From Conchocele bisecta (lineage: Eukaryota; Mollusca; Bivalvia; Lucinida; Thyasiridae), in contig CM055265.1 in assembly GCA_029237695.1 (NCBI GenBank), positions 78,796,447 to 78,860,446 on the forward strand: a stretch of 64,000 nt of DNA, read 5' to 3'. The notes under the pieces were generated by a model, which was not told where the DNA came from, made no database searches, and saw only the letters and a list, made by a program, of their open reading frames with translations. Position numbers and translations under genes: made by a program. Shown in pieces: positions 11,071 through 61,869 of this stretch (positions are counted from its first letter, which is position 1; each line of letters begins with the position of its first letter).

Positions 11071-14000
11071 ATAAGATAAGATAAGATAAATTTTATTTAA
11101 CGTCGGCAAGATATATAACAAGTAACATAAGTTCTCAAGAACTTTTGAACCGACACATATAAACAGATAGGACAGTACAAAACAGCACAAGTTTGGACAG
11201 CACAATTACATGTAACATGAATATCACAATTAAGTTTGGTTCAAAAATAAAAAAATATAAAAAATAAATAGTACAATATAGCACAATTTTGGACAGCACA
11301 TTTAAATAGAACATGAATATCACAATTAAGTTAAATTTAAATAAAAATGGATAAAAAAAAAAAAAAAAAACGACAATTTTAACAAAACCTGATATAAATA
11401 ATGCTCACTCAACCGGCTATGGCAAAACTAGTTGTTTCATCTAGAAGTTTGCACAGGCTGAGCATTTACAGTCAGTGCCGCTCCAGGATGACATTAACTG
11501 CTTAAACTGATTGAAATTTGTAATCTTTCTGAAGTCTTCGGGTAGGGAGTTCCATAAAACTGGCGCTGCATATCTAAAGGAGTTCTTGCCGTATCTGGTT
11601 GAGTTCACCTGAGGTATACTTAGAATATTTGAGTACCTAAAACTGTATTTATTCTCTCGTTTGTGGATAAGATCTGTTAAAACTGGCGGAGCCAGATCAT
11701 GAAAGATTTTGAAAGTTTCTATTGCAACCACACGCATTCTTCGAATGTGTAAGGTTGGCAATTTAGCTTTCAGCAAAAAAATCATTATATGAAAGATTGT
11801 AATCATTATACACAAATCTAAGAGCCCGTTCCTGTACTTTTTCGATTTTTTTGGTATTCGCTTCAGAACAAAAGTGCCATGAGAGGGGACAAAAGTTTTT
11901 AAAATTAGACAAGATAAAAGTATAAAAAATAGTAAGCCTGTTCAGTTTTGAGAGATCTTTTCCAATACGTTTGAGAATATTAAGTTGCTGTGCTGCTTTC
12001 TTCAGAAGCTTAGAGATATGACCATCAAAATTTAATTTGAAATCAATGTCTACACCTAATAATTTTACAACTTCATCACAAGAGATAGTTACTTCCCCTA
12101 TTTTAAATGCAGGTGATCTATCAGCCGTTTTCTTCCCAACTGCTATGGCCTGAAACTTGTCTGGGTTTGCCTGCATGCAGTTAAAATCAAACCATTCAAT
12201 AAGGACTTTACTCTCGGATTCTAAAACATTTGTAAGTTCATCAAAATTTTGGTGAGTTAAATGAAAGTGTGTTATCATCAGCGTAATTATACAATGTTCC
12301 TTTTTTAATAAAATAAAAAATGTCATTTATAAAAACATTAAAAAGAAGTGGTCCGAGAATAGAGCCTTGGGGAACCCCCTTCTTCAGATTTGCCCATGTA
12401 CCAACAATATCCCCAATTTTAATCTGCTGTTTCCGCCCGGACAAATAACTATTCATCATACAAGTTGAGTTATCTGACAGACCATATGCAGATAGTTTAT
12501 TGATTAGGATATTGTGTGGTAAACAGTCAAATGCTTTAGAGAGATCCATTAAAATTGCCGCTACAAATTCATTTTTATCTAGAACTTGTTTCCAGTCTTC
12601 TAAAAGTTTTAAAAGAGTTGTCTGGCATCCGTGTCCCTTACGAAAGGCGCATAGAAAGTTATCAAAAATGTTATCAAAAAAATCTGACAGCTGATCTGAT
12701 AAAACTTTTTCAAAAATTTTGGAGGTCATAGGTAGAATGCTTACAGGCCTGTAATTAGTCTTTGACATTGGGTCATTCTTTTTGAAAAGTGGACTAACTT
12801 GGGCTTCTTTAAGTCTATCAGGGAAAATATTAGAAGTAATTGACAAGTTTATTAAATTTGTGAGGGGCTTGACCAGAGCCGGTTTACCATTTTTTAGAAG
12901 TTTAGCCGAGATGCCGTCGACTCCCGTTGCCTTTTTTACCCCCAACTTATTTATTAATTTTGATACAGTTTCCTGATTTGTTTCCTTAAAAGTGAATGCA
13001 TTAGGAGGAAAGTTTTTATCTTTAATAGCATTAAGACTAGGATGATTTTCAGGGTTAAAATTGTAATCTTTACCTATATTTTCTGCAACGTTTACAAAAA
13101 AGTTGTTGTTAAAAACCTCAGCTACTTCAGTGTTTTCAGTTATTAGGTTATTATTTTCGGAAATAATTATTTTTGACTGCGAGTTACAGGATTTTTTCGA
13201 CAGATACGGTTTAATTGTTTTCCAGAAATCTGTTGATTTACAGCCCCCAATACATCGTTCATGAAAATAATTATTTTTTTATTTGGTTTTAAGTTTATTT
13301 ACCAAATTTCTACTTTTCCTATACAGTTCCCATGATTTGTTTGTATTATATTTTAAATATTTATTATAAGTCATTTTCTTTTGATAAATAGCTTTCCTTA
13401 ACATTTTATTCATGTACGGTAACGGATTGTTTTTTCTGTAAGCCTCTTTAATCGGTACGTGCTTATTGAAAATTTCAGTTACATCTACCTCGTATTGATC
13501 ATAAGTTGAATTCACATATAATGAGTCACTGATATTTGAGCTATTTGGTTTTATTTGGATCTGAGATAATTCACAGTTTAAATGCTCAACATTTAGGTTT
13601 TTAAAACTTCTATATTTAAATTTGCTTTTTTCTATGTTTGGGGTTGTAGTATTAATTACAGTGCTTATCATATTGTGACAATCACTAACACCAGTAGGAA
13701 AATTCAACGTTCTGATGCATGTGCGTGAGCAATTTGTAAGTATGACATCCAGTAGAGAAGGCTGGCAATTTTTCATAAAACATGTGGCTTCCTTAATAAG
13801 ATTGGACAAGTTGAACAATTCCATCAAATCAAACAATGTTTTTCCTTTGCCTTTACATAGCATATTGTAGTTTAGATCACCAATCACTATGTAATTATCA
13901 TATGCAGAAATGCACTTATCAATCAATAATGTGAAGGATTGACTAAATAATGAATCGGGCAAGCTTGGTGGTCTATATATGCAAACAATACACCATTTTA

Positions 14001-14589
14001 CTTTCTGAAATGTTACTTCATGTACTAAATTTTCTAGATTGTCAGATTCTATATCTCTCCGTCTACGACCTGGAATGTCTGTCCTGATAAATGAAGCTAC
14101 GCCTCCGCCATGTACATTTCTATCCCGCCGCTCAAATTTGTACCCTGGAATGTCAAATATGTTGTCGCTGTAGCTGGAGTCGAGTTTGGTTTCCGATAAA
14201 TATAATAAGTCTACTAATCTGTCCAACAGAATTTCGTGGATTTCTTCAAATTTGGATTTCAAACTGTTGATATTAAGGTGAGCAACAATAAATTTATTTG
14301 GATGTTTGTTTCTGAGAGATTTCAGCTCGTCGAAAGTAGAAGCACTGTTTTTTTCACTGTATGTGGAGTCGAAAGATATATCTGAGTCGAATAAAGAGTC
14401 CGAAAAATGCAATAAATGCGATTCACATGATCGACAAAGCCAGGGGTCATCACTCGCGCCTAACTCCCGATATTCCGCTGGGGTGATATTGGCACATTTG
14501 ATATGGCACCAGAAATAGCACGCCTCGCAGTAGACCGCTCTGTGGTTGTTGTTGACTGATTTTTTGCAGCCTCCGCATGGATTCTGGAT

Positions 14590-14640
14590 AGGCCCTGGGT
14601 TGAGTGACACATCTCCGCACATGAGAATCGCGAGGAGTCT
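14590..14640 (-). other. 2A-like (ribosome-skipping) peptide in the LINE leader
   Basis: The leader reads LLAILMCGDVSLNPGP directly before the zinc finger. 2A peptides have a C-terminal core D-x-E-x-N-P-G-P; here the core is D-V-S-L-N-P-G-P, so all positions fit except Glu, which is Ser. 2A-like leaders are known in APE-type LINEs of sea urchins, molluscs and trypanosomes. If active it would release the leader between the last Gly and Pro. Activity with the Ser substitution is unknown. Confidence 0.75.
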
Positions 14641-14701
14641 GTGTTGACGATGTTCGAGCTCGATGGGGATCGATAATGGATAATGGTCGCCAATATTAAC
14701 C

Positions 14702-14723
14702 ACTCTCTCTCTCTCTCTCTCTG
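14702..14723. repeat. (CT)n microsatellite in the LINE leader
   Basis: About ten CT units. On the element strand this is a GA run between the ATG at 14,742-14,744 and the main frame. A length change here would move the start codon in or out of frame. Confidence 0.95.
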
Positions 14724-14744
14724 TACTGCCTGTCCCTCAGACAT

Positions 14745-28200: not shown

Positions 28201-29927
28201 CTATCCGCGATGATCGGTGGCTGGTAATAATGTGATGTGTTGGCAGTTTCAACATTAGACACACGAATAACCGTACAACTTTATGTACATATTGTGCTTG
28301 CAAATATTATAAAATTATCCCGCGGGACCTTAACCCAAACCGCGTAAATATAATACATAATTGGATGTTGCAGTTGCAGGTTATGAATATCCCCCAGATA
28401 AATCCGCCACAGCTGGAAGCTCATTTTAGATATGTGTGACGAATGACTTTCATATCATGATTAAAGTGGTGTTATTTTAATTACTATATTCAGACCAACA
28501 TAAATTGCAAGAAGTGATAAAAAGATCACGTACAAACTTTCAATTTCTTTTTATTTTCATTTCAATATGAAATAATGTACATTTCAGACGCACCGATTGG
28601 CATTCAGGGATGAACTATATTCTCAAGGGGCGCTTGTCCCCGAATCCCCAATCCCCACACATCGTCGCCAGATCATATGATTGTGCCCACACGTAATTTT
28701 CACGATAATTGTTTTCTATTCCAATATTATATCATAAGGATGTGTACGGAATTGCTGCAAATGGAGTATTTGTTTGTAGACATTGCACGTGTACATCTGC
28801 AGTAGGCCGCTTATAACATTAACTTTGTGACAAAACACGACGTCGGGCAGATTTGGTAGCGTGATACCGTATAATTGTCTCTGTGTGTCTTTCTTGGGGA
28901 TCTCATTATCATCGCCTGATATACATTATTATGCAGTCAAGTGATAAGCTGATGATTTGATACTACAAATCGTGCGAAAAGCAAGTTTATGACCATCAAA
29001 TTTCCAATTAATTTCAAACTCCACCGACCTAGCTGTGTGGTTTGTGCATTATGTATTGCTTATACACAAACAATCAAGAAGCTGCATTGAAATCATTGAT
29101 TCTGAATCTATTAGAGAGATTTTGATGCATTTGTTTTGCCAAATTCAATACAAACCCCGGATAATTATGTCAATATATAGCTGCGTGTCTACCCCCATTT
29201 ATGATAAAATGAGTGGCATTAAAAGGCATATCATTCGCTAAGTACTGGCTATAATTGTTCAAAATTCTAAATTTACCAAGATAATAGATGGTAATATCGT
29301 TGACATACACTAGGTTCATATTTAAGGCTATGATTTAGGAATCAAAGTGCAGTGTAAGTGAAGACTTCGCTGATATGTAGCCAGTTAAAGTAAGCATTCA
29401 CCATTTTTAATTGATGAGGACAACCGACGAAAAAGAGTGACAATATCAAAGAACGACATTTATGCGACAATGTACAGCGCCTCGAGCATTTGCAAGTCAT
29501 TGATGCTGCGAGGAATTCTCGTGCAAGTATCCATGCTATAATATTTTGCCACGACACCATGGCCATAACGTCAACCATGGATTCACGTTCAGTGACGTCA
29601 CAAGTGCGTGATGTCACGTCATGACGTCATTATATGTGTACTGAGGCATCGCGTCTCATATTAGTGAAAGTTTCAGTAAGTTATCATTTTCCGTTTTCTG
29701 TTCACACTTAATGTTAACTGACACCAATAAACGTAAATGGGAGGGCAAAATGTAAACTTTTACGGCGACGTTAGACAATCTGAATCGTCGTTTTTCCTCG
29801 TCGTTTACCGCTTTTCATGACGTTGTCATTAAGCCCGGTTTTAGTATGGCGCGGCCCATATCTTTACAATGGTGCAAGTTATATATTATGTGTAATACAT
29901 ATGGATTGCAGTGCCCCACGTTGCAAA
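25284..29927. other. No gene seen over 4.6 kb
   Basis: 25,370-25,745 shares text (ccactggagcttaatccagg, aagatgg) with an inverted copy at 31,885-31,945. 25,915-26,080 is a fragment of the TGACCTT repeat. Elsewhere all frames are under 100 codons with no recognisable motif, and no clear splice-linked exons were found. A gene with short exons or a non-coding RNA cannot be excluded by eye. Confidence 0.5.
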
Positions 29928-30067
29928 TGTCACAGGGTGAGAAAAATGTGCACCCGCCCGGGGCTCGAACCCGGGACCTCTGGTTTACCGTACCATCGCT
30001 CTAACCGACTGAGCTAGCCGGGCACGAATACACACTTCCTCCCCACAGTGAGTTACATACCGTGACA
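29928..30067 (-). repeat. 3' LTR of the miniature element, copy 1
   Basis: 140 bp, 138 of 140 positions identical to the other LTR, with TGTCA/TGACA ends. Confidence 0.88.
29951..30023 (-). other. tRNA-like sequence in the 3' LTR with pol III boxes
   Basis: Starts GCCCGGCTAGCTCAGTCGGT, identical to the 5' part of animal tRNA-Lys(CUU) as I know it. The A-box (TAGCTCAGTCGG) and B-box (GGTTCGAGCCC) are intact, the T arm pairs (CCGGG/CCCGG), and TTTTT follows within about five bases, as for a pol III terminator. The anticodon loop lacks U33 and the acceptor stem mismatches, so it is not a working tRNA. It may still drive pol III transcription. Confidence 0.8.
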
Positions 30068-30168
30068 TACATCCCCGCCAAATTGGAATTCGTCCCCGAA
30101 TTCTATATTTAATTCGTCTCTGAATTCCATATATTTGATACATTTTGGGTAGTATATATATCAGTCAC

Positions 30169-30187
30169 GGTCCCTCGTTGGGCGCCA
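30169..30187 (-). other. Primer-binding site of the miniature LTR element
   Basis: TGGCGCCCAACGAGGGACC on the minus strand, two bases after the 5' LTR. It is complementary, with one or two mismatches, to the 3' end of tRNA-Lys(CUU)-type tRNA including CCA. Confidence 0.8.
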
Positions 30188-30189
30188 AA

Positions 30190-30329
30190 TGTCACAGGGT
30201 GAGAAAAATGTGCACCGGCCCGGGGCTCGAACCCGGGACCTCTGGTTTACCGTACCATCGCTCTAACCGACTGAGCTAGCCGGGCACGAATACACACTTC
30301 CTCCCCACAGTGAGTTACATACCTTGACA
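30190..30329 (-). repeat. 5' LTR of the miniature element, copy 1
   Basis: 140 bp, directly upstream (on the minus strand) of the primer-binding site. Confidence 0.88.
30213..30285 (-). other. tRNA-like sequence in the 5' LTR with pol III boxes
   Basis: Same as the other LTR with one change in the acceptor 3' strand. Again 73 nt, with A-box, B-box and a T5 run just downstream. A transcript from here would stop inside the LTR unless it reads through. Confidence 0.8.
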
Positions 30330-32293
30330 CATATATCATATAAGTACACACTTTTAGCAGTATACATCACTGAACATTCATTTATATGGAAGTATGTGAC
30401 ACACTGTCCAGGTCTCATTCCCTTGAAGTTTGATGTTAACAACCGACGTTTAAAGAGTCTTCTGTTTACATTAACTGACATGTTGAGGGCGGTTGGCTGG
30501 GAGCATTAGTTGGTCGGTGCCTAAAATGACCATCGCTGTTGACAGTCCGTTAAACACACTAAATCAATATACATATATCTGTCTAGCATTATAGCTGCCC
30601 AAGAACATGAGTTTAATGTTACATAATGTTTATACTTATTTTCTTTTCTATTCGGTGTATCGTAAAGTCGTACATCATGTTTATGCATACCAGAACGAGT
30701 TGAAACATGTCTCATTTGATACATGTAATACGGCATAGTATATTGCAAAAACAACCATATGGATCGAATCGATTCAATTATCGCTCTAGACAAGCGATAC
30801 ACATATCAATCATTTTATATGGTTACATGAATAGTATGCATTGAAATAATATAGTGGTGGTTGCATATGTTATACCATTTCCTGCAGATGTCAAAAAGTG
30901 AAATGTCACGCTAGAATGTGAATCTTACATGTATATGTACGTTAAATTATTGCTGATTTAGTAAATATGGTCATAATGAGATCAGTATTGTAAAATAAAT
31001 GGATCTTTGAACTCGATCGATCAATCATGTTTATCCGCGCTAATGGAAACTACAAATATATTATTTACAATTATTATATGTCTAGGTACCATAAATTTAT
31101 GGGTTAAACTACACCGATATAGATCAAAGGTACTTGCGATAGTTTCAATATGGTGCTTCGTGACGATAATGTCAGTGGTGATTTGTATAAAAGATACTGA
31201 TAAGTTTCCTAATTCAGCAGGTTATTCCAATTAGTTATGCAGTTACAAACATAAGTGTGCTTGATAGTGCTGCAATGAACTAAGTCTGCCAATTTCAGAC
31301 ATGTTTCAAGCATGAATAACAATGAAGTGTTGTTGTTTTTTTTAATTTCCCTGTGCTGATTTGCCTATATAGATGTATGCTATTTTGCGATAGTTCTCAA
31401 AAGTTGATGGCCATCTTGAATATATAATTTTGATAATACAATAATTAAAGTATGCATTAAATGTACTGCGTAGTTCAATTGTCTCCATAGGACCTATATA
31501 GCACATTCAAATATTGTAATTATGGTAAATGTTATATTTTATATACAAATTTACGTCATGCGGCATTTCTCGCAATTTGGTGGCCATCTTGAATACCATT
31601 TTACATAACATAATATATAAAATATGTATTAAATATATTGTATAGTTGGAATGTCTTCTAATAACCCCAATATTACATTCGAATATATTTATTCCAAATT
31701 GTCCACATGTTTGTTCAGTTTAGAGAGTTAAGAGATGTTAGCGGCCATCTTGGACACCATTTGGATAGCATTACAGTTGACAATTTGAATTATTATTAGT
31801 CGTTAGTTATATTTAGTACTTTTCGGCACATTATTTTCCTGATTGGTTTAGTGGATTTTGCACTAGTTTTGTTGGCCATTTTTGGACGCCATCTTGATTC
31901 CAGGATTAAGCTCCAGTGGGATGCATGGGGAGTTTTGATATGTTATTACAAATGATATTTTGGTCATTTTCTGAAAAATTCAGCTTTGGCTTATTTTTTT
32001 CCGATCTGAACCCTAATACTCTTCGTCTATAGATATGCAAATGAGCTAGCTACATACACCATGTTAGGTAATCCGTACCCCTTAAAATTATGATGATGTG
32101 CTTATGCAATAAATATAATCCTACAATTGTGTTGATTTAATAAAATGATATTTATTAATCTCGTTAACTGATTTCATATTAAGAAACTCGGAAAAGCCTC
32201 ATTTCTTATGAACTCAATAAACTCGTTTAATAAATATTGTATTAAATCACCGCTCATGTAAGATCCTCTGTGTCACCATTTCTTTATTACAGA
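30330..32293. other. Region upstream of the GPCR exon; intron or intergenic
   Basis: No coding exon recognised. 31,400-31,990 contains phrases such as ggccatcttgaataccattt repeated about every 180 bp, and 31,885-31,945 is an inverted copy of text at 25,385-25,445. The end (tctttattacag at 32,281-32,292) is a good 3' splice site, so part of this stretch is probably an intron of the GPCR gene. Confidence 0.6.
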
Positions 32294-33835
32294 ATGCACA
32301 CCGCTAACGTTACGATGGAGTTGCAGACTGGAGGGAACACTACGGTCGCCCTTTTAGAGAATAAGCATGGCGGGAATGTGAATGTGTTCATGCCGGCGAT
32401 CGTCTTCACCGCCTTTTCATGTGTGGTCGGGACCATTGGCAATGGTACGGTGCTTATAGTTTACACGAGGAAGTTCCAACAGACTAACCACACGTATTTC
32501 ATTTTGTTAATGGCCATTTGTGACATATTAACGTGTTCAATTTGTATGCCATTCTTGATCGTGGACATGGTGTACTCATACCAGTTTGCAGACAGACTAC
32601 TATGCCGTCTGTTTTTATTTATGACTTATGTCACGTGTCTGACGTCAGCTACAACGCTGTGTCTTATCGCCATAGACCGGTACAGAAAGCTATGCGCGCC
32701 TCTAGCGAAACAGATCAGTACTGACATGGCGAAGAGATTAGTGTTGGTCGCGTTATGCGTCGGCTTAGTAACGGCTCTGCCTTCTGTATTTATAGCTGGA
32801 TACGATACGATTGAACTGGGATACGATATAACAGCAGTTACATGCTTTATCGACGTTTCGTTCAAGTATTCACTATTTCCCAAATTATATATCGTTGCAG
32901 TGTCATTAATGATAGGAGCATACTGCCTGGCTATCACAACATGTTATTATAGAATTATAAAACAACGATTGCATAGAAGTAAAAATGGCTCGAGGTCAAT
33001 GTTAACGTCAACTCAGAACAATAAGCCTTCATTTCTGAATCCAATACGTAGCAATCAGCGACATATTCCAACGGCAATTGAGAATGACCGCATAGATAAT
33101 TCTAGGATGTCTATCAGCTCCATTAAAGTGCAGCGACTGGACGGCACGCTACTGGTTCGAAGAACAGTGCAAGACTGTCGAATACGAGGCATCAATCGCA
33201 GGTCACAGAGCATTAAAGAACGCACTGAATATTCTGATAATGATGAAGACATAATCGAAAAGGAAGAAACTATATGCTCAGTTGAAAACCATGAACCGGA
33301 CACTCAACGGGACAGTTCTGCAGTTTTCAGTCCTACACCCACATCTGAAAATAATACAGAAAATATGCAAACCGACCAAACTGACATTACTACAACAGGC
33401 GCAGTTTCTTTTCATACAGAGGTCAACACAGCATGTTATGCCGGAGGCAGGTTTCAGCTTAAACTCAGGGAACCAACCAGACGGGCTAGTTCCAAGTCAA
33501 TAGTTAGAACGACTACCAGACGCAAACATTTTATAAAGAGAAGTGCCACGACCTCTGCAAATCATTCAAAATGGAGAGATAGGACCATGATACGAATTAC
33601 AAAAATGATGTGTCTTATCACTGCTCTTTTCATCTTAAGTTCATTGCCACATTTTACGCTAACTATTATATTATTAATAAACGCTAGATTTTTCGAGTAT
33701 ATGTCGTTTGGAGAAGCGGCACTATTACAAGTTTTATTGCGATCATTTCTGATACAATCTGTTGCAAATCCAATAATATACGCATGCATGGATAGAAACT
33801 TTAGAAAGCAATGTTTTCACCTTCTAGCTAATTGA
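32294..33835 (+). CDS. Rhodopsin-family (class A) G-protein-coupled receptor
   Basis: A 513-residue seven-helix receptor expected in the plasma membrane. The N-terminus has two N-glycosylation sites (NVT at 5, NTT at 15). TM1 (about 32-57) contains GN, and TM2 (67-91) has Asp77 (2.50). Cys104 and Cys184 are placed for the TM3-ECL2 disulfide. TM3 ends in DRY (128-130) and continues RKLCAPL. TM5 is about 195-218. The third intracellular loop is very long (about 219-437), basic and Ser/Thr-rich. TM6 (438-461) has SSLPHF in place of the usual CWxP. TM7 holds NPIIY (492-496). The tail after helix 8 is only about 10 residues. I start at the ATG at 32,294 because it directly follows a 3' splice site (ttattacag, then one base); an upstream non-coding exon is likely. 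The ligand is unknown; peptide or amine receptors of molluscs share this layout. A LINE fragment begins at the stop codon. Confidence 0.88.
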   Translation: MHTANVTMELQTGGNTTVALLENKHGGNVNVFMPAIVFTAFSCVVGTIGNGTVLIVYTRKFQQTNHTYFILLMAICDILTCSICMPFLIVDMVYSYQFADRLLCRLFLFMTYVTCLTSATTLCLIAIDRYRKLCAPLAKQISTDMAKRLVLVALCVGLVTALPSVFIAGYDTIELGYDITAVTCFIDVSFKYSLFPKLYIVAVSLMIGAYCLAITTCYYRIIKQRLHRSKNGSRSMLTSTQNNKPSFLNPIRSNQRHIPTAIENDRIDNSRMSISSIKVQRLDGTLLVRRTVQDCRIRGINRRSQSIKERTEYSDNDEDIIEKEETICSVENHEPDTQRDSSAVFSPTPTSENNTENMQTDQTDITTTGAVSFHTEVNTACYAGGRFQLKLREPTRRASSKSIVRTTTRRKHFIKRSATTSANHSKWRDRTMIRITKMMCLITALFILSSLPHFTLTIILLINARFFEYMSFGEAALLQVLLRSFLIQSVANPIIYACMDRNFRKQCFHLLAN

Positions 33836-34890
33836 AATGTAAACTATATGCGTCTGTTATAAACGAACGACTGACTAAGTGGGCGGATAATAATGCAAAA
33901 CTGTCAGACAATCAAAATGAATTCCGGGAAAAACGCAGTACAATCGATCACTTGCCAACTCTTACAACAATCGTCGAAACCCGGAAGAAGAAACGCTTGT
34001 CAACGTTCTGTGCTTTTATTAACTTCCGAAAGGCACATGATTGTATAGACAGACGCATTCTTTGGAATAAACTGGCCGATGCTGGTGTAAATATTGTTAT
34101 GCTTAATGCCGTTAAGTCTGTGTGTCTTCATGTATTCGAGCCAACGATTGTACCACTGATTGGTTCGATGTTACATCGGGCCTACGACAGGGGTGTTCAT
34201 TATCACCTCTCCTTTTTAACCTGTTTATCAATGACTTGGTCCTGCATATCAGCGCTATGGAGAAGGGTATACTGTCGTTTGGCGATACTAATGTATGCAG
34301 ATGATGTTGTGATTATTGCCGAAAATGAAGTCGATTTGCAATCAATGCTAGACGGATTGTCTAGTTGGTGCAATACTAACATGACCATAAACTATGATAA
34401 AAGTAAAGTTGTCCAGTTCAGACAGAGAGCTATATTGAAAACTGCAACTATGTTTAGCTGTGGGGGACAAACCATTGATGTAATTGATAAATACAAATAT
34501 CTAGGTCTAATTTTAGACGAACATTTAGATTATAAGTTAACGGCTAAAATTGAGTGCAGGCAGAGCGCTAGAAAATGGGTGGGATGCCATATACTGTATA
34601 TACTAAGTTGTATGACTCTCTTGTGTGGTAAATTATCTCGTATGGGGCCACAATTTGGGGCACTACACGGTATTCGTGTATCGAGGCAGTACAAAACCGT
34701 GCACTGCGATTCTTCTTTATGCTTGTCTACATGTAACATTGAGTTTTTTAAATAAATAATAGGGGTTTTATAGGGCGTTTGGGATATGAGACTGTTGTAG
34801 GTCGTGTATTTTTATGAGAAAAAAAATACGTGAAAACAGGTTATCAAAATATTATAACAAAATAAAATATAGGAATGGACGTCTATTACA
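33832..34890 (+). pseudogene. Degraded LINE reverse transcriptase abutting the GPCR
   Basis: From KLYASVINERL onward the translation follows a non-LTR RT: LSDNQNEFREKRSTIDHL, then a finger/palm motif with FINFRKAHDCIDRR where F.KAYD is usual. In a second frame (34,122-34,260) it reads SGLRQGCSLSPLLFNLFIND. Back in the first frame it has the catalytic MYADDVVI and KYKYLGLILDEHLDY. Near 34,600-34,720 another frame continues toward the RT thumb (an EAVQNRALRF-type motif). At least three frameshifts are needed, so it is dead. It lacks the endonuclease part and begins within about 20 bases of the GPCR stop. The clade is uncertain. Confidence 0.85.
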
Positions 34891-39790: not shown

Positions 39791-40352
39791 AGAACCCGCG
39801 TGGGGAATTTATATGTAGAGCCAACTCTACAGTATTGACCACCGCCATATGAGAGCGTGTGAGCCCCCAGTCGGTGACAAATGGTGGCCAATGTGGGGGC
39901 ATGAAATTCGACCAAAACCGATGATTTGAGTCGCACAAAGAGTAAACATCGAGTATTCTCTGGATTTTGAATATGTATGAGATGTGTAGTGTGACGTCAC
40001 TCACACCGACCAGTGCCTAAGCCAATCAGATTAGATATATTATATTCCACCCGGTTCCCGGAGATTGTTTGTAAACAAACAACAACACGTGCGTGTTAGA
40101 TAGAGTGGATCCGCATATAAACTGTCGTACCGGTGTTCACCAAGGAGGCGGCGACACGGGACATCAGCAACACCTAGAATCGTGTACGACGGAGCTGACG
40201 ATTGGTTGCGAACGTTATTCCACGAACGCGTTTGGATTATCTGTGACCAGATGATTAGTGACAGTTACATTCGTGTGGCTTGTTTATGTACTTTACTGTG
40301 ACTGTGATATATACTTGGATTTACGATACTAGTCGGCTGTTGGTGAGTCAAT
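39791..40352. other. No gene seen
   Basis: No coding or repeat structure recognised between the lone satellite unit and the miniature LTR element. Confidence 0.5.
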
Positions 40353-40747
40353 TGTCTCTATACGTACGAAACTCACTGTGGGGCGGAAGTGTCTATTCGG
40401 TCGGTTAGAGCGATGGTACGGTAATCCAGAGGTCCCCGGTTCGAGCCTCGGGTAGGATATGCATCTGTCTCACCCTGTGACATTTGGCGCCCAACGAGGG
40501 ACCGTGACTGATATATATACTACCCACAATGCACCAAAAATATGGAATTCAGAGACGAATTAAATATAGAATTCGGGGACGAACTCCAATTGGCGGGGAA
40601 GTATTTCACGGTACGTAGCTCACTGTGGGGAGGAAATGTGTATTCGTGCCCGGCTAGCTCAGTCGGTTACAGCGATGGTACGGTAATCCAGAGGTCCCCG
40701 GTTCGAGCCGCCTCGGGTAGGATATGCATCTTTCTCACCCTGTGACA
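40353..40747 (+). mobile_element. Miniature LTR retrotransposon with tRNA-like LTRs, copy 2
   Basis: Plus-strand relative of the element at 29,928-30,329. The 5' LTR is about 40,353-40,482, and the primer-binding site TGGCGCCCAACGAGGGACC is at 40,485-40,503. The same internal words follow (gaattcagagacgaattaaa, attcggggacgaa, ggcgggga), and the 3' LTR is 40,604-40,747. The 3' LTR keeps the tRNA-like start (gcccggctagctcag at 40,648) and B-box. In the 5' LTR about 16 bases including the start of the A-box are missing. Both B-box regions are altered at their 3' side and the T-run is shortened, so this copy is older than copy 1. Confidence 0.82.
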
Positions 40748-41165
40748 CATACCAGAGATACTGTCACTAGTTCACTTTCTTATATCGTCGAAAGTTAGGT
40801 GACGTGAGGCGGTATTAGAGATAAAACACCCTCAAACATACCAGAGATACTGTCACTAGTTCACTTTCTTATATCGTCGAGAGTGACGTGACGTGACGTC
40901 GTATTAGAGATAAAACACCCTCAAGCATACCAGTGATACTGTCACTAGTTAACTTTCTCATATCGTCGAGAGTGACGTGACGTGACATGACGTGACGTGA
41001 GTGACGTGACGTGACGTGACGTTGTAATAGAGATAAACACCCTCAAACATACCAGTATTACTGTCACTAGTTCAGTTTTTCATATCGTCGAGAGTGACGT
41101 GACGTGACGTCGTATTATAGCTAAAACACCTTCAAGCATACCAGTGATGCTGTCACTGACCCGAT
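40748..41165 (+). repeat. Satellite array with TGACG core, about 90-110 bp units
   Basis: Four to five units, each with cataccag.gatactgtcact, agttcactttctcatatcg, tcgagagtgacgtgacgtga and gtattagagataaaacaccc. The tgacg part is itself amplified at about 40,970-41,020. The left end touches the LTR element directly. Confidence 0.88.
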
Positions 41166-42050: not shown

Positions 42051-42792
42051 AATACAAGTACAAGTACGTCCTGACAGTCGTTGACGTAGCGAGTCGCTAC
42101 AAGGAGACTGAGCCACTGACCACGAAGGAGGTCAATGAGGTGTCCCAAGCTCTTTCCCCCCCCCCCCCCCCGCATATACAAGAGGAGCCTTCTCAAATGG
42201 CCGAATATTCTCCAGGTCGATCCTGGGCGCGAATTCATGGGCGCAGTCTCTCAGCTGCTGGGCAAGCACGGGGTCTCGGTAAGACGCGGTCGTGTGTATG
42301 TCCATCGGGATCAGGGGATGATGGAGCGGTTCAATTGGACCCTGGCTGAGCGGCTGTTTGGGCACCAATATGCCCAAGAGCTTGTAGACCCTCATACGCG
42401 ATCAACTGAGTGGGTGACCAGGCTGCCGGTCGTGGTCTCTGCACTGAACGGGGGTGACCAGAGTGGTCGGTAAGAAGCCCGTGGATGACATCAAGGCGAA
42501 CAAGGTGTCGCATAAGCTCTATACCGTCTCGCGCGGGCGACCCGTTGGTTTAGCGGAGCAAAAGCTTCCCTCGGGTGTTGGCGTCCGGTACCTCTACCAG
42601 CCCGGGGAGCTGGAAGGTGGCAGCCGCTGCGCGACTGATCCCGTGTGGTCTCTCAATGTATATCATCTGGATCAATATATTACCAAACCAGATGAGCCCG
42701 TGCTCTACTACCTTGACAGTGGTCCATCGCGCGGGTTTGTCCTCGAAGAACTTCTTGCGGTGCCTTCTGACACACAGCTGCCAGCGGGCTAA
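42051..42792 (+). pseudogene. Polinton-type integrase (DDE), frameshifted
   Basis: The retroviral-type integrase core is readable in three frames. TVVDVASRYKE (first Asp at 42,083-42,085) is followed by WPNILQVDPGREFMG (second Asp), HRDQGMMERFN (Glu), LAERLFGHQY and TEWVTRLPVVVSALN. After another shift near 42,460 come the C-terminal pieces GKKPVDDIK, GVGVRYLYQPGELEGG and DPVWSLNVYHLDQYITKPDE. A run of 16 C at 42,156-42,171 causes the first shift, between the two Asp. The N-terminal zinc-binding part was not found. The similarity to Polinton integrases is strong; the element is inactive. Confidence 0.85.
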
Positions 42793-43294
42793 ACACATTC
42801 CAACGGCTCGGTGTGGATCCCGTCCGGTGGGACCCGCCTCTTATCGTAGTAGACGGAGAGTCCGAGCTTCCGCTGTGAATACGTTTTCATTGCTCTGTTT
42901 TCATTTTCTGCCATATCGATTCCTCCTTCTAATGCCATCTTATATATATACCATGTCAAGTCGTTTGTTCTTTTCGACATTCCCTTTGCCGAGCGTGTCA
43001 CTCTACCTTTTCCATACAATCCCTCGTCACCACTAACGTAGTAACATTTGCTACATAACACGATGACACTATCACCTCGAAACTCCAGTCCTGGAGTTCT
43101 GTTACTCCATTGATCCCAAGCGAGCCATTCTTTTTTCTCTTTACGAAACTCTTCTATTCTTTCGCATCGGACTACACTCTCCAACTCTTTACAAGACAGT
43201 GCGAAGTACATACTGTCCGTGTCCATCTGTATTAGTTCGAAATCTCTTCTGTCAACGTATCTATGTAGAAAATCGTAGTAGAACTCTAGCTATT
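42789..43294 (-). pseudogene. Polinton DNA polymerase B, carboxy-terminal fragment
   Basis: On the minus strand the frame contains FYYDFLHRYVDRRDFELIQ directly followed by MDTDSMYFAL, with the DTDS catalytic motif of family B polymerases. It continues to the palm/thumb words SAKGMSKRTNDLTWY, TYSQRKLGLSVYYDKR and DGIHTEPL at the end. It ends tail-to-tail with the integrase fragment. It starts abruptly at about 43,294, so the exonuclease and most of the palm are missing. Confidence 0.85.
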
Positions 43295-51238: not shown

Positions 51239-52813
51239 CTGAGCAAAACTAGAAACGTCCCTCCATGTTTAAGGAAATATTCATCAAAAACCAAAAGGGT
51301 TACTTTTAAAAATCAAAATGGAAAAACAAGTTCATTCATTTCTGTATCAAAGCCAATAAATTGCATTTGGATATCTTGTTAAATATTCGAGAGATAACCG
51401 GCCAAGGGCGGTAGGGGTCAAAATCAAAAATCACAAAAACTCAGAAATGTGTTACTTAATGTTTAGAGATGGAATTTCAATAAGTAATGTGGCAAATTCA
51501 GTAAATCTCGTTAGTACCGAGTGTGGCCACCATTTGCATGAATGCATGCAATGATCCTACGCCGCATCGACGTGACGTAACGCAATACCAGTGCGTTGGG
51601 CAAATTCCTCCATTCCCGTTGTAACGCCCGTGTAAGATCGCGAACATTGTCAATCTGATGGTTAGCTCGTGCTTTGCGGCCCAGCTCATCCCATATGTGC
51701 TCAATGGGATTGAGATCCGGGGAGACCGCGGGCCATGGCATGACGTCGACGTTGTTTTGCTGTAAGTATTGAGTGGTGACCCTGGCTACGTGAGGGCGGG
51801 CATTGTCGTGCATCAATGTCACACCAGGACCATGCTGACGGATAAATGGTAAGGCATGTGCATTTAGCACATCTGCAACATAACGTTGTGCATTGATGTT
51901 GCACTGTACAACAACCAAATCTGTCTTCCGGTTTCCCATGATCCCACCCCAGACCATTACGCTCCCTCCCCCAAACCTGTTCCTCTCAACAATGCAACAA
52001 TCGGTGAATCTTTCATTTTTACGCCTGTATACCCGTAATCTTCCGTCAGCATGACTAACTGTCAACCGAGATTCATCGGTGAACAAAACTCGGTTCCAGT
52101 CAGCCCTTCTCCAGTTCAGATGACGTCGCGCCCATAACAGTCTGGCAGCACGGTGACGTTGGGTCATTATCTGACCAGTGTACGGGCGGCGTGCCCGGAT
52201 TGGTTGGGCGTTACGACGTAACCGGTTGTGAATGTTCTGCCCTGAGACACCGTATCGCCTAGCAGTGACTGTGGCTGCCAATAGACGTTGACGTAAGTGC
52301 GCCAACGTAATGTAACGATCGGCTCTAGCCGTCGTTACACGAGGCCTACCAGGTCGCTGCCGGTCGTGAACAGCCCCAGTCTGCTGGTACCGGGCTGCAA
52401 GACGATCAATCGTCTTCCGACAGCAACCAAACCGAGGCGCGACCGCCCTGGCGGCCATCCCACCCGCAAGCATCCCAATTGCCTGATTTCGCTCGTTTTC
52501 GGAAAGCCGTGGCATATCGAAAACAGTGAAAAATTAAAAAAGTTTTTTAATTTTCCGAATAGCCCCTATCGCATGAATGGTACGACATGAACTGAATCAC
52601 CTTATCGATGACAAGTATAGCGTGCACGTGCAAATAGTGGAAATCAACGTTCCGGTCACTGGCCGCTATGTAAACCGTGTGTATCGGCTAAACTATACAC
52701 GATCGTATTCTGAACATCGCCACGGTTTAAAATACATGTACTTTGAACATGTGGTACATACATAGACAGAGCTACACCGGCTATAAAACAGGGACGTTTC
52801 TAGTTTTGTTGGG
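51239..52813 (-). mobile_element. Tc1-type DNA transposon, apparently complete (1,575 bp)
   Basis: The terminal inverted repeats share caaaactagaaacgtccct (51,244-51,262 and inverted at 52,790-52,808) without mismatch. The outer five bases differ at three positions. Both ends are bounded by TA (51,237-51,238 and 52,814-52,815). It contains one uninterrupted transposase gene. It lies in the intron between the first coding exon and microexon A1 of the short-chain collagen C4-like gene, in the same orientation. Confidence 0.92.
51511..52515 (-). CDS. Tc1/mariner-family transposase (DD34E), intact
   Basis: 334 residues, the usual length for Tc1 transposases, with no stop or frameshift. The N-terminal part (about 1-110) is the paired-type helix-turn-helix DNA-binding region, with a GRPR motif at 56-59. 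The catalytic residues are Asp147 in LFTDESR, Asp237 in MHDNARPH and Glu272 in SPDLNPIEHIWDELG. Asp237 and Glu272 are separated by 34 residues, which is DD34E. A glycine-rich GGGSVMVWGG lies between. The enzyme would excise and insert its own element at TA. The gap from the start to the right TIR (52,516-52,789) would hold the promoter. The intact frame suggests recent arrival or maintained activity. Confidence 0.95.
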   Translation of the reverse strand: MPRLSENERNQAIGMLAGGMAARAVAPRFGCCRKTIDRLAARYQQTGAVHDRQRPGRPRVTTARADRYITLAHLRQRLLAATVTARRYGVSGQNIHNRLRRNAQPIRARRPYTGQIMTQRHRAARLLWARRHLNWRRADWNRVLFTDESRLTVSHADGRLRVYRRKNERFTDCCIVERNRFGGGSVMVWGGIMGNRKTDLVVVQCNINAQRYVADVLNAHALPFIRQHGPGVTLMHDNARPHVARVTTQYLQQNNVDVMPWPAVSPDLNPIEHIWDELGRKARANHQIDNVRDLTRALQREWRNLPNALVLRYVTSMRRRIIACIHANGGHTRY

Positions 52814-60366: not shown

Positions 60367-60625
60367 TGTGACGAAGTCGTTGTCCGGAACTCTATTAATA
60401 ATGACTGTTTAATATAGGATGTGCGGTGTGGTTGAAGTGATGTTTAATATTGGGAGTGCGAGGCGGTTGAGGTGAATGTCGTTGATACCGGAAGTGTTGT
60501 AGCTAGCGTGCTCGAAGTTTAATAGAAGAATCCCCGGTTGTATCAATCTGTGTAGATCTGTTGATGTCATACATGCTTCTAACCAATTAAAATATATTGC
60601 CTGAGCTGTCTTCAGAGTTGTCACA
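60367..60625 (+). repeat. 5' LTR of the gypsy-like element
   Basis: 259 bp; see the element entry. Confidence 0.9.
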
Positions 60626-61610: not shown

Positions 61611-61869
61611 TGTGACGAAGTCGTTGTCCGGAACTCTATTAATAATGACTGTTTAATATAGGATGTGCGGTGTGGTTGAAGTGATGTTTAATATTGGGAG
61701 TGCGAGGCGGTTGAGGTGAATGTCGTTGATACCGGAAGTGTTGTAGCTAGCGTGCTCGAAGTTTAATAGAATAATCCCCGGTTGTATCAATCTGTGTAGA
61801 TCTGTTGATGTCATACATGCTTCTAACCAATTAAAATATATTGCCTGAGCTGTCTTCAGAGTTGTCACA
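61611..61869 (+). repeat. 3' LTR of the gypsy-like element
   Basis: 259 bp, one mismatch to the 5' LTR, preceded by a polypurine tract. Confidence 0.9.

Follow-up and report, generated by a model that had tools for sequence, protein, structure and literature searches.

The window, a 64,000-nucleotide stretch of the Conchocele bisecta genome, harbors a complete miniature LTR retrotransposon (TRIM) of 402 bp (Table 1). In brief, two direct repeats enclose a short internal part, and on the sense strand, which is the minus strand (30329 to 29928), the order is LTR, TT, TGGCGCCCAACGAGGGAC, internal part, GGCGGGGATGTA and LTR. Within the window, the repeats at 29928-30067 and 30190-30329 are 98.6% identical over 140 bp (E 1.7e-67). 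This structure of an LTR pair and a primer-binding site is far beyond chance. No open reading frame of 150 amino acids or more overlaps the element. The preliminary description had placed a miniature LTR element at these coordinates, with 140-bp LTRs that differ at two positions, TGTCA/TGACA ends, a tRNA-Lys-type primer site two bases past the 5' LTR and a G-rich tract before the 3' LTR, and our analysis confirmed each of these points.

Table 1. Features of the 402-bp element and of the second copy in the window
Feature	Position	Strand	Remarks
Complete Helenus-type TRIM	29928..30329	-	402 bp, no visible coding capacity
5' LTR	30190..30329	-	140 bp, ends TGTCA...TGACA
3' LTR	29928..30067	-	140 bp, 2 differences from the 5' LTR
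Internal part	30068..30189	-	122 bp, no run of four or more T on the sense strand
tRNA-like sequence of 5' LTR	30211..30285	-	RF00005 44.8 bits, ARAGORN Thr(GGT)
tRNA-like sequence of 3' LTR	29951..30023	-	RF00005 41.2 bits, ARAGORN Thr(GGT)
Box A of 5' LTR	30267..30278	-	TAGCTCAGTCGG, LTR position 52
Box B of 5' LTR	30223..30233	-	GGTTCGAGCCC, LTR position 97
T5 run behind tRNA-like part, 5' LTR	30204..30208	-	pol III terminator-like, LTR 122-126
T5 run behind tRNA-like part, 3' LTR	29942..29946	-	
Primer-binding site	30170..30187	-	TGGCGCCCAACGAGGGAC, tRNA-Lys 3' end type, two bases past the 5' LTR
G-rich tract	30068..30079	-	GGCGGGGATGTA, directly before the 3' LTR, polypurine-tract position
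Flank of imperfect 4-bp target duplication	29924..29927		CAAA
Other flank of imperfect 4-bp target duplication	30330..30333		CATA, 3/4 match to CAAA
Second, more diverged copy (subfamily B)	40364..40747	+	first LTR damaged
Primer-binding site core of second copy	40485..40496	+	

The second copy, which the preliminary description leaves out, lies about 10 kb from the first in the opposite orientation. The two are 86% identical over 400 columns, and 94% identical in the internal part. No run of four or more T (T4+) occurs on the sense strand of 40346-40747, and Rfam detected no tRNA in the second copy when matches up to E 1 were allowed. GTGAC-rich tandem repeats follow at about 40747-41108.

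Several other features were observed in the window. A non-LTR retrotransposon at 11441-14736 (minus strand) has separate open frames with reverse transcriptase and PHD-finger domains and a weak match to an endonuclease. A rhodopsin-family GPCR is encoded in a single open frame at 32246-33835 (plus strand), directly followed by a reverse transcriptase fragment at 33832-34755. A search with the GPCR gene (32246-33832) gave four weak matches. The 340-aa open frame at 51511-52533 (minus strand) has DDE_3 and Tc3-type helix-turn-helix matches, as in a Tc1/mariner-like transposase. A 35-bp double repeat occurs with the same score at 60406-60475 and at 61650-61719, 1.24 kb apart, perhaps by local duplication. 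By eye, the open frame at 42789-43289 (minus strand), with the motif MDTDSMYF, resembles a fragment of a family B DNA polymerase; a Pfam search of this frame up to E 1 gave one unrelated match (0.11).

The tRNA-like sequence and the primer site

Each LTR contains a tRNA-like stretch with box A, box B and a T5 run, as the preliminary description had noted. Both stretches score above the Rfam gathering threshold for RF00005 (29 bits), and box B at LTR position 97 reads GGTTCGAGCC. The proposed identity, tRNA-Lys, was not supported, as ARAGORN assigns both stretches to Thr(GGT). From the Rfam alignment, the anticodon loop of the window copy was read as ACGGUAA, in which position 33 is C. When folded in isolation, the tRNA-like stretches gave no cloverleaf, and their fold stability was not clearly above that of shuffled sequences (z -0.63 and -1.28; 50 and 22 of 200 shuffles, respectively, fold equally well or better). 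The D arm and T arm resemble those of tRNA-Lys.

The primer site is read from 30187 down to 30170 on the minus strand, with TT in front. Allowing at most one mismatch, TGGCGCCCAACG has two sites in the window against 0.10 expected, and the second of these falls inside the second copy at 40364-40747. TGGCGCCCAACGAGGGAC matches 16 of 18 bases of a general tRNA-Lys(CTT) 3' end. In three related loci (L065, L069 and L075) the site reads TGGCGCCCAACGTGGGGC, an 18/18 match to the same end. One exact-pattern scan of viral contigs for the primer-site stretch gave no match. The G-rich tract reads GGCGGGGATG in the window element and GGCGGGGGAG in several relatives, and is not pure purine.

Genomic copies and subfamilies

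Searching the genome (1.89 Gb, 1196 contigs) with the 402-bp element gave at least 100 matches, not all of them full length, with 40 of the 2899 first candidates scored. The second copy gave at least 72 (40 of 2646 first candidates scored), and copies from both searches were chosen by similarity to the query. The exact junction of CATNTTTCTCACCCTGTGACA, TT and the primer core occurs 426 times in the genome. A looser pattern of box B, gap and primer core occurs 809 times, and the reversed pattern not at all. The locus thus belongs to a multi-copy TRIM-like element with tRNA-derived promoter-like sequence in its LTRs, as first proposed.

Target duplications were sought around 38 copies or arrays from loci L001-L060 that have full LTR ends and are not duplicates. 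Exact 4-bp flanking duplications were present in 25 of the 38, against 33 of 1406 in a cross-pair control, and none of the 38 had a 3-, 5- or 6-bp duplication. The exact 4-bp duplications flank 18 of 23 single copies (9 of 12 A-type, 8 of 9 B-type and one of two mixed) and 7 of 15 arrays. Among C- and D-like loci, 4 of 16 could be delimited, and three of these four have exact 4-bp duplications. Between the two LTRs of each of the 12 single A-type copies there are 0-6 substitutions per about 140 bp; since these differences are so few, some insertions look recent, unless conversion made the LTRs alike. The element is a real, high-copy one that has probably been active recently.

Head-to-tail arrays of a 262-bp unit and head-to-head pairs also exist, and more than three simple parts were found in 28 of 56 clusters (L001-L060, a sample chosen by match score). 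Four arrays (L025, L046, L053 and L054) mix A- and B-type LTRs inside one intact 4-bp duplication. In L060 an A-type 5' LTR and a B-type 3' LTR lie inside TATG/TATG, and L075 combines a C-type 5' LTR, an A/B-type internal part and a truncated A-type 3' LTR. Because ordinary reverse transcription makes both LTRs alike, the mixed copies need some form of exchange, and we infer recombination with LTR circles or gene conversion. Three loci with other sequence behind the primer site (L066, L068 and L076) have no open frame longer than 93 aa in the available stretch; they resemble truncated copies more than a helper element.

The first 100 listed of the 809 junctions were sorted by motif into 68 A, 16 B and 16 C-like, the latter including two labelled D (L072 and L073). 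A T4+ run lies behind box B in 70 of these 100 junctions, namely in 54 of the 68 A and all 16 C-like ones but in none of the 16 B. Counted over the LTRs of L001-L060, T4+ is found in 94 of 104 A-type and in 0 of 52 B-type copies. The B-like second LTR of L067 carries T5, so that loss of the T run within subfamily B is likely but incomplete. The D-type loci L072 and L073 have TTTT in the internal part.

The promoter boxes are common to the subfamilies. Of the 156 distinct LTR copies, 104 are A-type and 52 B-type; 100 and 50 of these, respectively, match a loose box A pattern, and 96 and 46 contain box B. All eleven majority differences between A and B fall within LTR positions 84-123; none is in box A or in bases 1-10 of box B, and one is at the last base of the 11-base box B. 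Two more rows in the list of differences stem from trimming of the B query. Aligned LTRs of types A, B, C and D (11 in all) agree almost fully in box A and box B but differ in the anticodon arm; a twelfth LTR, from L041, had no match to the pattern and was left out. Of 12 C- or D-type loci submitted to ARAGORN, 9 were predicted to carry tRNA-Thr(TGT), and the sister family with tRNA-Thr(TGT) LTRs has the same primer-site core. The Rfam tRNA threshold is reached by one of eight B-type LTRs (four loci). Across subfamilies, the promoter boxes thus persist longer than the tRNA score and longer than the T run.

Within subfamily A, the mean non-majority fraction is 0.0088 for box A, 0.0201 for box B, 0.0187 for the tRNA-like part, 0.0216 for LTR 1-44 (U3-like) and 0.0137 for LTR 120-140. 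Among these copies, variation in the T run and in box B is not clearly below that of the sequence around them, which gives no support for selection on either inside subfamily A. Because box B varies no less than the remainder of the A-type LTR, the comparison between subfamilies has limited power. T4+ is absent from 89 of 89 internal copies. This is weak evidence: T4+ occurs in 615 of 2000 shuffles of one internal part, which puts the expected absence at about 69%, and all copies descend from a single ancestor.

Relation to Helenus and other miniature elements

Helenus elements are TRIMs with tRNA-like sequence in their LTRs, described from fungi, animals and plants (Kojima 2024, Biology 13:119, PMC10886601). 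Kojima reports them from six animal phyla, with 51 families in five bivalve orders, and a meeting report from 2026 mentions them in one sentence and a reference (PMC12859917). Compared by description, the window element matches animal Helenus on each defining feature examined. It is short and non-coding, with two LTRs, a tRNA-like part with boxes A and B in the LTRs, a primer site, a (G-rich) tract at the polypurine position and 4-bp duplications (3/4 in the window copy), and it belongs to a dispersed multi-copy family. The 4-bp duplications agree with those given for animal Helenus, and 402 bp lies within the Helenus range of 311-1263 bp (PMC10886601). For bivalve Helenus, Kojima lists tRNA-Lys among the primer sites and seven families able to encode tRNA-Thr, so that both traits are known from bivalves. 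Hundreds of copies are given for some genomes, and tandem arrays for LTR-11_DR (PMC10886601).

The preliminary description viewed the element as an animal counterpart of the plant Cassandra elements. It is indeed an analogue with tRNA-derived LTR sequence, but not a new kind of element, as this kind was published in 2024 as Helenus (PMC10886601). The window family is possibly an unlisted Helenus family, judged by described features. Cassandra shares the pol III-type promoter and terminator-like signal in the LTR, the lack of coding capacity and the tandem arrays; its promoter, however, is 5S-derived, it is known from vascular plants and its primer site is TGGTATCAGAGC (PMC7215508). Membership in Cassandra was rejected, as Rfam at gathering thresholds finds only tRNA in the window element. 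The biv-TRIM of Satovic et al. (2019, PMC6934838) is likewise a bivalve TRIM with solo repeats and tandem arrays, but has repeats of 202-218 bp, an internal part of 77-80 bp and no unambiguous primer site as described there; membership was rejected in view of the 140-bp LTRs, 122-bp internal part and clear tRNA-Lys-type site of the window element. Ajax, a nemertean TRIM, also carries a pol III-type promoter in its LTR, but this is a partial 5S promoter, and its target duplications are 5 bp long (PMC10886601).

It had further been suggested that the tRNA-like part was captured from tRNA-Lys(CUU) by primer-related template switching. Direct origin from the tRNA-Lys primer was rejected in view of the Thr calls, Thr(GGT) here and Thr(TGT) in the sister family with the same primer-site core, and of the report that the LTR tRNA-like part of Helenus lacks complementarity to the primer site (PMC10886601). 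Kojima proposes insertion of a SINE into the LTR instead. Since the D and T arms show the likeness noted above, and since Kojima aligns molluscan Helenus to an Aplysia tRNA-Lys (PMC10886601), a distant tRNA-Lys origin may still be considered from the sequence.

Transcription and mobility

We suggest that the window element is a TRIM of the Helenus group, moved by a helper and replicated from a template made by RNA polymerase III, and we give this whole reading a probability of about 0.8. As a non-coding and non-autonomous LTR retrotransposon, it would depend on an autonomous LTR element for its movement in trans. The helper would most likely be a Gypsy element that primes reverse transcription with tRNA-Lys; Kojima describes animal Helenus as moved by Gypsy and pairs the primer sites of bivalve Helenus, the Lys type among them, with Gypsy elements (PMC10886601). 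The element RNA would most likely be made by pol III from box A and box B of the 5' LTR; pol III transcription of Helenus is expected by its author and given there as unproven (PMC10886601). LTR positions 1-44 would correspond to U3, about 45-126 (from the tRNA-like part to the T run) to R, and the last 14 bp to U5.

As the T5 run sits between promoter and primer site, the template RNA would have to read through T5 in the 5' LTR and run into the 3' LTR. RNA stopping at the first T5 would be a dead-end, short tRNA-like transcript. Against a pol III template stands the T4+ run between promoter and primer site in 70 of the 100 listed junctions, where many pol III transcripts would be expected to end with the template still incomplete. 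Subfamily B, mostly without T4+ in its LTRs, has also transposed, as its exact 4-bp duplications show. In the main text of PMC10886601 we found one passage on terminators, termination, read-through or T runs, and this concerns Cassandra; a T4+ run between promoter and primer site was not found discussed for Helenus there. Tentatively, and with some doubt, the LTR T run may be an attenuator of a pol III retrotransposon. The polymerase would then pass the signal, which is in both LTRs of most copies, in the 5' LTR and stop at it in the 3' LTR. Most initiations would thereby yield short tRNA-like RNA, and few the template.

The T runs also speak for an unlikely alternative, in which the same element has its full-length template made by RNA polymerase II, from a weak promoter of its own or by read-through from flanking genes, and the tRNA-like part mainly yields short RNAs or is a passenger. 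T5 in the window copy, the T4+ runs in 70 of 100 listed junctions and an ATTAAA in the internal part agree with this. The LTR of the window element, however, has no AATAAA, ATTAAA, TATAAA or TATATA, the boxes are common to the subfamilies although the tRNA score of B-type LTRs decays, and subfamily B transposed with no T4+ run in the LTRs counted.

It is very improbable that the element spreads functional tRNA-Thr genes in the form of its tRNA-like parts. The Thr(GGT) prediction in the window copy would fit, as would Thr(TGT) in nine of the twelve C- or D-type loci, but position 33 of the window copy reads C, only one of the eight B-type LTRs (from four loci) reaches the Rfam threshold and yet B-type copies transposed, and Kojima judges tRNA function unlikely (PMC10886601). 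There is next to no probability that the locus is just two adjacent copies of a tRNA-derived SINE, with no LTR element. Head-to-tail arrays of the 262-bp unit could suggest this, but the element has a primer site and TG...CA ends, and in 18 of 23 single copies exact 4-bp duplications flank the LTR-internal-LTR unit as a whole; as the target duplications enclose a two-LTR unit, the tandem SINE was rejected. The case that the preliminary description named against itself, a tandem SINE without primer site or the lack of a multi-copy element with these ends, was accordingly not borne out by the genome copies.

The family adds another LTR element outside plants with sequence like the promoter of a small-RNA gene. 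Its tRNA-like LTRs inflate tRNA gene predictions, and the promoter-like sequence may offer a low-cost way of retroposing through pol III. Should the terminator reading hold, subfamilies with and without a terminator could be compared within one genome for making of the full-length template. If the T run is an attenuator, the T4+-free subfamily B would be a natural test of the pol III template, and also of the need for a terminator in the LTR.
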